The position numbers and the translations under genes are program-made. A stretch of DNA of 64,000 bases from Taibaiella koreensis. Lineage in GTDB: Bacteria > Bacteroidota > Bacteroidia > Chitinophagales > Chitinophagaceae. Below are positions 18,890-64,000 of the stretch, one piece after another; position 1 is the first letter of the stretch, and every line of letters begins with the position of its first letter. The notes under the pieces are model-generated. The model did no database searches. It saw only the letters and a program-made list of their open reading frames with translations, and had not been told where the DNA came from. The stretch lies in assembly GCF_003545715.1 (NCBI RefSeq), contig NZ_QVNU01000001.1, positions 372,001 to 436,000 of the forward strand, given 5' to 3'.

Positions 18890-19197
18890 AAGTAATCGTA
18901 TTTGGGGTGAAAATGGCGTGCTGGTATCCCCAGTCGCTTGTCTTTAGCGAAGGTACTGTCGCGTTTAGGCGGCGACAAGCGTGAAGACACCCTAATCCAT
19001 GCGTGGAATTACGCAATTTCACGCATGGCCGGAATAAGGGGAGCCTGGCTTCAATGAAAATGGGGAAAGAAGATATGCCGACGCGCTCCGGACAGGCGCG
19101 TTCACCTTTTGCTGTTGCCGGTCCCTAAAACAATAAAGCGCAGCACTGCAAAACAGTCCCACGCTTATTATTTTAAGTCGATCGGTTTATCCGGCTG
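18890..19197. other. Gene-free stretch with a 32-bp palindrome
   Basis: 308 nt without a credible gene. It holds a palindrome at 18997-19028: arms ccatgcgtg (18997-19005) and cacgcatgg (19020-19028), with aatt/aatt inside, so nearly the whole 32 bp is symmetric. No T run follows on either strand, so an operator is more likely than a terminator. It lies about 108 bp upstream of the peptidase start and beyond the ilvE stop. Confidence 0.5.
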
Positions 19198-58820: not shown

Positions 58821-58852
58821 AAAACGTTCCGGTACCGATACCGGAACGTTTT
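58821..58852 (+). terminator. Terminator after copy 2
   Basis: 14-bp stem aaaacgttccggta / taccggaacgtttt, a 4-nt loop, then T and A residues. Confidence 0.85.
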
Positions 58853-58879: not shown

Positions 58880-58912
58880 TTTGCGCATTTTATTAATTTA
58901 GACTTAACTTTG
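58880..58912 (+). promoter_or_regulatory. Strong promoter of the PurF-like gene
   Basis: TTTG at 58880-58883 and TAACTTTG at 58905-58912, 21 nt apart: both elements match the consensus. The ATG is at 58920, 7 nt after the -7 element, so the message would be leaderless or nearly so. Confidence 0.7.
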
Positions 58913-58919
58913 CGTCCTC

Positions 58920-60767
58920 ATGTCAGATGCTTTAAAACACGAATGCGGGCTTGCCTACATTCGGCTGCTCAAGCCCATTTCTTACTACCACCGTAAATAC
59001 GGTACTTCCTTTTACGCATTGAACAAGCTTTACCTCCTGATGGAGAAGCAGCATAACCGGGGCCAGGATGGGGCCGGTATTGCTACGCTGAAGCTTAACG
59101 TAGAGCCGGGTTACCAATTCATGCACCGTCTGCGCATCGCAGGACCGGGAGCGATCAAGGAAATTTTTGCATCGGTACAGGACGAAGTAACAGAGCTTGA
59201 ACGTATGTATCCCAATCTGCGGGACTATCCCGGCTTAATGAAAGGATACCTGCGTTTTATGGGCGAAGTGATGCTGGGGCATCTGCGCTATGGTACACAG
59301 GGCAAAAACAGCGTGAAATTTTGCCACCCCTTTGTAAAATCGGACATTAACCCTGCCCGTAACCTGACCATGGCGGGCAATTTCAACCTGGTGAATACCG
59401 ATGAGCTGTTTGCGATGCTGAAGGAGAACCCGGACGAGACCATGCGGACCAGCGACCTGGGCGCGATGATCGATACCGTGCATCACTTCCTCTGCGAAGA
59501 AGAAGCCAAGTCGCCCGAGAATCCCGATGTGGAAGCGATGCTGCGCAACGCGGCCAGTCGCTTCGACGGCGGCTATGTCTGCGGCGGACTTATCGGCAAT
59601 GGCGACAGCTTCGTATTGCGCGATAAGCATGGCATACGGCCGGCCTATTATTATCACGACGATGAGATCGTAGTCGTTGCGTCGGAGCGTCCTGCTATCC
59701 AGACCAGCTTCAATGTGCAGCAGCACGAGATCAAAGAATTGCCGCCGGGTTGTGCCGTGATCGTAAAAGCAGATGGTACCCTGAGCGTGCCGCAAATACT
59801 GGAGCCTGCGGAAAAAAAGGCCTGCAGCTTCGAAAGGATCTACTTTAGCCGTGGCAGCGATGCCGATATCTACCAGGAACGCATGGCACTGGGCAATAAC
59901 CTGGCACCCCAGGTGTTGAAGGCGATAGACAACGATTTAAAGAATACGATCATCTCTTTTATCCCTAATACTGCTGAAACGGCTTTTTACGGCCTCATCA
60001 AGGGATTGGAGGATTACCTGAAAGAACTGAAGATCCAGCGGATCATCCGCAACCGGAATACGATGACCGATGCAGAGATCAGCGAGCTGATCCGCCGTAG
60101 GGTGCGTATCGAGAAGCTGGCCATTAAAGATGTAAAGTTGCGCACCTTTATTACTTCCGACTCGACACGCGACGAGATGGTGCAACACGTATATGATATT
60201 ACCTATGGTACGGTAAAGCCTCAGCAGGATACCCTTGTCGTGATCGACGACAGCATTGTAAGAGGTACCACGCTGCGGCAAAGCATTATCAAAATGCTGG
60301 ACCGGCTCAAGCCCAAAAAAATTATTGTAGTCTCTTCGGCGCCACAGATCCGCTATCCCGATTGCTATGGCATCGATATGAGCCGTATGGCCGATTTTAT
60401 TGCGTTCCAGGCTGCCGTAGAGCTGCTGAAGGATCGTAATATGAACCATGTGCTTACGGAGGCCTATCTCAAATGTAATACGGCAAGAGAGCACAACCGG
60501 CTGCACGAGGAGAACTTTGTCAAAGACATCTATGCGCCGTTCACGCCTGAGGAGATCAGCGAAAAGATAGGTCAGCTGCTGCGTCCCGAAGATGTTGAAG
60601 CAGAGGTACAGATCATTTACCAATCCATCGAAGGCTTGCACGAGGCCTGTCCGCACAACAAGGGTGACTGGTATTTTACCGGCAACTATCCCACACCGGG
60701 TGGCAACAAAGTGGCCAACCGCGCCTTTATGAACTATATGGAAAACAAGGCAGGACGCGGCTATTAG
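58920..60767 (+). CDS. Long amidophosphoribosyltransferase-like protein (PurF family)
   Basis: 615 residues, clearly longer than classical PurF (about 470-510). Cys9 in ALKHECGLAYIR would be the glutaminase nucleophile after processing of the short N-terminus; HNRGQDGAGIATLKL and GHLRYGTQGKNSVKF are glutaminase marks. The PRPP motif is in TLVVIDDSIVRGTTLRQSII. The extra length is mainly in insertions of the N-half (EVTELERMYPNLRDYPGLMK) and a C-terminal extension. Bacteroidota often have a second, longer PurF-like enzyme; this one fits. The first step of purine synthesis is likely, but a separate role is possible. Confidence 0.8.
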   Translation: MSDALKHECGLAYIRLLKPISYYHRKYGTSFYALNKLYLLMEKQHNRGQDGAGIATLKLNVEPGYQFMHRLRIAGPGAIKEIFASVQDEVTELERMYPNLRDYPGLMKGYLRFMGEVMLGHLRYGTQGKNSVKFCHPFVKSDINPARNLTMAGNFNLVNTDELFAMLKENPDETMRTSDLGAMIDTVHHFLCEEEAKSPENPDVEAMLRNAASRFDGGYVCGGLIGNGDSFVLRDKHGIRPAYYYHDDEIVVVASERPAIQTSFNVQQHEIKELPPGCAVIVKADGTLSVPQILEPAEKKACSFERIYFSRGSDADIYQERMALGNNLAPQVLKAIDNDLKNTIISFIPNTAETAFYGLIKGLEDYLKELKIQRIIRNRNTMTDAEISELIRRRVRIEKLAIKDVKLRTFITSDSTRDEMVQHVYDITYGTVKPQQDTLVVIDDSIVRGTTLRQSIIKMLDRLKPKKIIVVSSAPQIRYPDCYGIDMSRMADFIAFQAAVELLKDRNMNHVLTEAYLKCNTAREHNRLHEENFVKDIYAPFTPEEISEKIGQLLRPEDVEAEVQIIYQSIEGLHEACPHNKGDWYFTGNYPTPGGNKVANRAFMNYMENKAGRGY

Positions 60768-63100: not shown

Positions 63101-63121
63101 TTAATTTGTTCGCTTTCAATG

Positions 63122-63154
63122 AAATAGCCTTCGCTTATGCGGAGGCTATTTTTG
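63122..63154 (+). terminator. Terminator after the ABC exporter
   Basis: 13-bp stem aaatagccttcgc / gcggaggctattt (one mismatch) and loop ttat, then tttgtt, 21 nt past the stop. Confidence 0.75.
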
Positions 63155-63333
63155 TTGTTTGCATTAACAGATATTTGTTAACATAATTTTTGGCATTCAT
63201 GAATATGATTGAAATATGGCATTCAAATAATTGTTTTTCTTGCTCTTAGAAGTAGGTTAATTATTGCCTATTTCTATTTTGTTAATAAATTATTATGGAA
63301 CTGCGTCATAACGCTTTGATTTATCATGTGATG

Positions 63334-63363
63334 CGAGTATATTTGGTTAACTAAATATACTCG
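63334..63363. promoter_or_regulatory. 30-bp near-perfect palindrome just before the SusC start
   Basis: cgagtatatttggtt (63334-63348) and aactaaatatactcg (63349-63363) are reverse complements with one mismatch in 15. The palindrome ends 3 nt before the ATG. It could be an operator for a dimeric regulator or a hairpin in the message that hides the start. Confidence 0.65.
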
Positions 63364-63366
63364 TGT

Positions 63367-64000
63367 ATGAAAAAACTACTACTCATGCTTGCAATCTTTT
63401 TATGGTCAGGATTGCAGCTAGCCATGGCACAAGGGCGGCCTGTCAGAGGACAGGTTTTAGATGACAAAGGGGAAGGTATTCCCGGTGCGAGCGTTCAGGT
63501 AAAAGGGACGAGCACCGGTACCATAACCGACGTAGACGGGAACTTTAATTTAGAGGTGCCGGATGAATCCGATATCCTGGTCATTAGCGCCATAGGATTC
63601 GGTCAGCAGGAAGTGAAGGCAGGCGATGGCTCCGGCGCGGTGTCGGTGCGCATGTCGACCACATCCAAGGTGATGGGAGAAACCGTAGTAACGGCCCTGG
63701 GTATCAAAAAGGAAAAAAAGGCGCTGGGCTATTCGGTCAGCGAGGTCAATAGCGATATGATTGAAAAGTCAGGAGAGCGTAATGCTATCCAGTCGCTTTC
63801 GGCCAAGGCGCCGGGTGTGCAGGTTACTTCCAGCGCAGGTACGCCGGGTGCTTCCACCAAAATATTGCTGCGTGGTAACTCTACCTTCACCGGTAACAAT
63901 GCGCCGCTGGTGGTAATCGACGGTATTCCTGTCGATAACGGCTCTTCCAACGTGTCCAATCAATCCTTTGCCGGTGATAATCCGTTCAACATTAACCTTA
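63367..64000 (+). CDS. susC: SusC/RagA-family TonB-dependent receptor (N-terminal part)
   Basis: The window ends after 211 codons. Signal peptide MKKLLLMLAIFLWSGLQLAM, then the carboxypeptidase-like domain (GQVLDDKGEGIPGASVQVKG, about residues 25-110), the TonB-box-like TVVTALGIKKEKKALGYSVS and the plug (SLSAKAPGVQVTSSAGTPGA, LLRGNSTFTGNNAPLVVIDG). These are the first modules of SusC receptors, which import glycans or other large nutrients with a SusD lipoprotein. A susD would be expected to the right. A 30-bp palindrome sits before the start. Confidence 0.92.
   Translation, partial: MKKLLLMLAIFLWSGLQLAMAQGRPVRGQVLDDKGEGIPGASVQVKGTSTGTITDVDGNFNLEVPDESDILVISAIGFGQQEVKAGDGSGAVSVRMSTTSKVMGETVVTALGIKKEKKALGYSVSEVNSDMIEKSGERNAIQSLSAKAPGVQVTSSAGTPGASTKILLRGNSTFTGNNAPLVVIDGIPVDNGSSNVSNQSFAGDNPFNINL

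Follow-up and report, generated by a model that had tools for sequence, protein, structure and literature searches.

Invertible promoters of Bacteroides are built with inverted repeats that flank a segment at surface-protein promoters. The sigma-A (sigma-ABfr) promoter of Bacteroidota has the consensus TTTG / TAnnTTTG, as given in PMC7366714, and in F. psychrophilum the -7 box occupies -12 to -5 (PMC9723704). For B. thetaiotaomicron, PMC7366714 reports 23 nt as the commonest leader length and short leaders as common, and describes PM2, a near-palindromic motif at promoters with elements around -10 and -30. AraR of Bacteroides is presented in PMC4666351 as a dimeric repressor with a semi-palindromic site; its regulon has a 21-bp motif, susCD operons are among its predicted targets, and araR clusters with targets.

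We analysed a 64,000-nt stretch of DNA (the window) that carries a 30-bp palindrome directly before the start codon of a susC gene. The genome carrying the window (G000) was compared with three other species of the same genus (G001, G002 and G003). The susC site resembles a Bacteroidota sigma-A promoter in both elements, in the 19-nt spacing and in the distance to the ATG, but promoters of this kind are not as a rule built into a palindrome of 30 bp, as this one is. As in the invertible promoters of Bacteroides, an inverted repeat lies at the promoter of a surface protein. We nevertheless rejected an invertible promoter: the arms of the susC palindrome abut, no repeat pair flanks a segment, and there is no second copy. 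The likeness to AraR extends to a semi-palindromic site at a susCD operon, but AraR, as described in PMC4666351, serves a regulon and is encoded near its targets, whereas the susC palindrome is a single site per genome. PM2 is likewise near-palindromic and found at promoters; its elements differ in placement, around -10 and -30, from the susC dyad, which would be centred near -1 and coincides with a sigma-A -7 box.

Judged from its sequence, the palindrome is real, overlaps a predicted promoter, is operator-like and sits at one genus-specific susC locus; it is ordinary in kind. A literature search, with supplements outside its range, found no paper on this element. In Bacteroidota, a palindrome near a start codon can lie on top of the -7 box, and it should first be considered as part of a promoter before an RNA hairpin is invoked.

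The palindrome and the predicted susC promoter

The receptor gene starts at position 63367 of the window on the plus strand and runs past its end (63367-64000). Profile matches assign its product, which has 1033 aa in the full genome, to the SusC/RagA family (TIGR04056, 606.3 bits), with CarboxypepD_reg_2, Plug and barrel domains. On the 3' side of susC lie a SusD-like gene and then a gene for a 424-aa protein with a sub-threshold outer-membrane-barrel match alone, while an MsbA-like ABC exporter gene lies on the 5' side. A terminator-like hairpin (63121-63152, plus strand) and a second terminator-like stem (63247-63276) are found 3' of this ABC exporter gene. These hairpins upstream of susC suggest that it needs, and probably has, a promoter of its own.

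The palindrome, CGAGTATATTTGGTTAACTAAATATACTCG, occupies positions 63334-63363 as read on the plus strand, and 14 of its 15 pairs match with no spacer between the arms. The initial annotation had placed it just before the susC start codon, and this was borne out, as 3 nt separate its end from the ATG (63367-63369). The span of 63334-63369 given there was too long, since it takes in the ATG. Its figure of 14 matching pairs out of 15 also stood, while the accompanying "29 or more of 30 bases" in symmetric position must be lowered to 28 of 30. The single mismatched pair is G63345 against T63352, which would be G-U in RNA.

Symmetry of this degree exceeds chance. When the 266-bp intergenic region was shuffled 20,000 times with its dinucleotide composition kept, 14 of 15 pairs matched in no case and 13 of 15 in 33 cases. 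Shuffles of the whole window (n = 200) yielded a mean of 0.0 sites at 14 of 15, against two in the real window; the other of the two (58822-58851) is followed by a T run and has a terminator-like look. A palindrome with 13 of 15 matching pairs, CATGCGTGGAATTACGCAATTTCACGCATG, is found at 18998-19027. An intrinsic terminator was rejected for the susC palindrome, whose AT-rich stem is followed by TGTATG and which is absent from the output of the terminator scan. A dif-like site was also rejected: a dif-like search pattern gave 2 matches versus 5 for the control, and its arms are unlike the palindrome.

The left arm of the palindrome contains TATATTTG (63338-63345, plus strand), a perfect match to the sigma-A -7 consensus TAnnTTTG, so that the palindrome overlaps the predicted core promoter. 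A -33 element, TTTG (63315-63318, plus strand), lies 19 nt 5' of this box and follows the consensus in PMC7366714. The -7 box ends with the unmatched G63345. A full -33/-7 match arose in 1025 of 20,000 shuffles of the intergenic region, and taken alone the consensus match would be weak evidence for a promoter. The promoter call gains weight because five of the six susC genes of the locus, from four species, carry the same box near the ATG, at a distance of 21-23 nt and with TTTG 17-22 nt before the box. The box of the G002 gene has A as its final base. No box stands 21-23 nt before the ATG of the sixth gene, the second susC of G003.

Considering the box position of -12 to -5 given for F. psychrophilum in PMC9723704, we predict that susC transcription starts at 63350, +/- 2 nt, on the plus strand. 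This would leave a 17-nt leader (63350-63366, plus strand) that contains AACTAAA. As AAC[AT]AAA is common to five promoters of the locus, including ones without the palindrome, the right arm consists in part of leader sequence. Relative to the predicted start, the palindrome would cover about -16 to +14. With that start inside the palindrome, a transcript from this promoter would not contain the complete hairpin.

Upstream of the promoter, two blocks (63168-63220 and 63274-63299) are similar to G003, for example ATATTTGTTAACATAATTTTTGG and TTTTGTTAATAAATTATTA, and could possibly be activator sites or a second promoter. Elsewhere in the window (58880-58920) there is another consensus -33/-7 pair, with its box, TAACTTTG, at 58905-58912, 7 nt before a purF-like ATG (58920). 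A purF-like message from this box would be almost leaderless.

Conservation at the locus and searches for further sites

For searches of relatives we used the conserved 22-bp core of the palindrome, TATATTTNGTNNACNAAATATA (63338-63359). G000, G001 and G003 each contain the core exactly once, in every case immediately 5' of this susC. It is absent from G002, which lacks the right arm. Among 294 family genomes, it was found in these same three, and the reversed control in 0. A search of 29 genomes with one mismatch allowed gave further sites only in G011 and G026, each inside a reading frame; within one mismatch there was no further site in G000. The initial annotation had held that its reading would fall if the palindrome were unique and not conserved in close relatives. 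It is unique in its own genome, yet it stands before the same gene in two of the three other species of the genus.

The two species that share the core differ in what they say about selection. Between G000 and G003, 29 of 30 palindrome bases are identical, compared with 159 of 233 in the remaining intergenic region. The similarity extends into the gene, where 59 of the first 60 coding bases and 20 of 20 third positions of codons 1-20 agree; identity at third positions is 58.9% in the ABC gene and 58.4% in the purF-like gene. Because a recent exchange may account for this block of palindrome and gene head, the G000-G003 comparison says little about selection. G001 is better evidence, because its flanks have diverged while the core was kept: 21 of 22 core bases agree, although the sequence 5' of the -7 box is unalignable and the signal peptide is 60% identical. 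The outer four pairs of the palindrome are gone in G001. The mismatched pair remains unmatched in each of the three species, where G faces T, A and T.

Downstream of the palindrome, the locus has a mosaic structure. SusC of G000 and SusC of G003 are 96% identical over residues 1-25 and 86% over residues 26-88, and 26-29% identical beyond residue 250. In this last part, G000 is 80-83% identical to SusC1 of G001, and G003 is 57-68% identical to G002. The SusD lineage tracks the SusC body, with identities of 71.8% between G000 and G001 and 62.2% between G003 and G002; from one group to the other, SusD identity is 30-33%. G000 and G003 thus have the promoter, the signal peptide and the N-terminal domain in common, and their barrels and SusD proteins come from different lineages (window 63367-64000; L113 10368-14854; L115, L116 and L117). 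Two susCD pairs are present at the locus in G001 and G003, and one in G000 and G002. That the head is common where the bodies differ suggests a fixed "expression head" of palindromic promoter, signal peptide and N-terminal domain, behind which whole receptor bodies and their SusD partners would be exchanged between species, with one genus-specific regulator controlling the slot whatever nutrient is imported. We regard this bolder account as unlikely. A cargo-specific repressor fits badly with a promoter head that is common where receptor bodies differ, and the arrangement would speak against a regulator tied to one cargo.

The initial annotation had proposed looking for the same palindrome before other susC genes of the genome; it was found in 0 of 28 other upstream regions in G000. 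The N-terminus of susC had 31 matches in G000, from which one second piece of an already listed gene and one match without a locus were left out, so that 29 upstream regions were examined, with start codons assigned by script. The runner-up palindrome among these 29 regions (score 10, against 12 for the susC palindrome) belongs to L159, a TonB receptor gene (G000:C17:658369). It is a T-run/A-run palindrome that likewise ends 3 nt before the ATG and is not kept in orthologues, and symmetry of this type before an ATG can be an accident. The L159/L184 gene also has TTTAGAYTAATCTAAA (G000:C17:658960-658975), which precedes the ATG by 30-35 nt in all 4 Taibaiella genomes (G000, G001, G002 and G003), each with a single exact copy. 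This sequence resembles a DtxR/MntR box. The conservation of the susC palindrome (three of four genomes) lies between that of the L159 palindrome, which is not kept, and that of TTTAGAYTAATCTAAA, which is kept in all four.

Outside the genus, palindromes were scored in the regions 5' of 34 more distant matches to susC, some of which begin inside the gene, so that the true start may be further upstream. None of these regions had the core, and the best palindrome score among them was 10 (L090, 97 nt upstream of the match). When up to three mismatches to the core were allowed, sites outnumbered those of the reversed control in G000 (9 vs 2); the counts were 4 vs 6 in G001, 13 vs 11 in G002 and 5 vs 2 in G003. 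The contexts of five such sites in G000 and of three sites in other genomes were viewed. One of the five G000 sites is inside a reading frame and three are upstream of one. A 2-mismatch site lies about 30 nt before a 297-aa frame that has no match in G001-G003, and another 2-mismatch site lies about 100 nt before a different frame. A 3-mismatch core (G000:C18:565394-565415, L143) is separated by 4 nt from the downstream ATG of a gene that matches protein kinases. This kinase-like gene is present in G001 and G003 and was not found in G002. At its upstream site, G003 keeps GGTAAACAAAA without the full symmetry, and G001 keeps neither. We read the relaxed-core sites, including that of the kinase-like gene, as a weak lead and not as a regulon.

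Readings of the palindrome

The palindrome has the look of an ordinary site for binding of a regulator protein, and less that of a ribosome-blocking RNA hairpin. Of the two options in the initial annotation, a transcription operator and a message hairpin, the operator is favoured by the -7 box in the left arm, and the hairpin is disfavoured. Our preferred reading, which we hold about as readily as we doubt it, is that the palindrome is an operator-like DNA dyad covering the core promoter from which susC and susD are transcribed as an operon. If so, transcription would start near 63350, within the dyad, and a putative dimeric DNA-binding protein, whose binding at the palindrome we infer, would occupy about -16 to +14. 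The bound protein would bar RNA polymerase from the -7 box until a signal released it. The sole asymmetric pair would sit where the promoter requires its final G, and translation would then begin from a short leader with little structure. Two sister promoters, before the G002 susC and before the second of the two susC genes in G001, keep the box and lack the right arm, so the basic promoter does not need the arm. An operator in this place had been called unusual because the ribosome must load here. This view was not upheld, as a DNA site that overlaps a promoter is ordinary and short leaders are common according to PMC7366714.

A hairpin in the mRNA that controls translation or message stability would require transcription from a promoter further upstream, and the conserved blocks shared with G003 leave space for one. 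The RNA fold beside the start codon is indeed strong in G000 (-21.2 kcal/mol, z -5.2, with 0 of 200 shuffles as good). However, the best predicted promoter would start the transcript inside the palindrome, so that only the right arm would be transcribed, and RNA from 63349, 63350 or 63352 cannot form the stem; its folding is limited to a weak hairpin of -4.1 kcal/mol, in which the start codon takes part. The fold also drops to -14.5 kcal/mol in G003 and -5.8 kcal/mol in G001. Species differences in G003 and G001 break pairs with no compensation among the three sequences compared, and a search of Rfam up to E = 1 returned six sub-threshold matches, none over the palindrome. Because RNA from the predicted start would lack the stem, the fold is weaker in relatives, compensation is absent and Rfam gives no match, we favour a palindrome that acts as DNA and consider the hairpin quite improbable.

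Among DNA-level explanations, it is possible, if somewhat doubtful, that there is no dedicated operator and that the -7 box and A-rich leader are symmetric by accident, having been inherited or spread with the gene head in a small genus. The L159 palindrome, found before a receptor gene of the same genome, is consistent with this, as are the leader motif AAC[AT]AAA in promoters without the palindrome, the right arm missing in G002 and the G000-G003 identity, which may be a recent exchange. Accident does not sit easily with the absence of 14-of-15 symmetry from the 20,000 shuffles, nor with the core match in G001 despite its differing flanks, and the outer CGAG/CTCG and the right-arm TATA have no promoter or leader reason. 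It is very improbable that the palindrome is a recombination site or boundary used in the exchange of susC bodies. Although susC is mosaic between species at this locus and the G000-G003 high-identity block starts near the left end of the palindrome, the genome has no second copy for pairing. The switch between bodies lies some 200-330 bp inside the gene, away from the palindrome, and homologous recombination in the conserved N-terminal part would suffice.

If the palindrome is an operator, it would provide one well-defined bait for finding the regulator of the susCD locus. The sister promoters with the same -7 box and without the right arm are natural controls at the same locus. Among 15 neighbouring G000 proteins scanned, a subset of the neighbours, there was no repressor-type DNA-binding protein. 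An ECF sigma/FecR pair is located about 21 kb downstream of the palindrome (L114 11432-12933, minus strand), next to a gene that probably encodes an outer-membrane protein.
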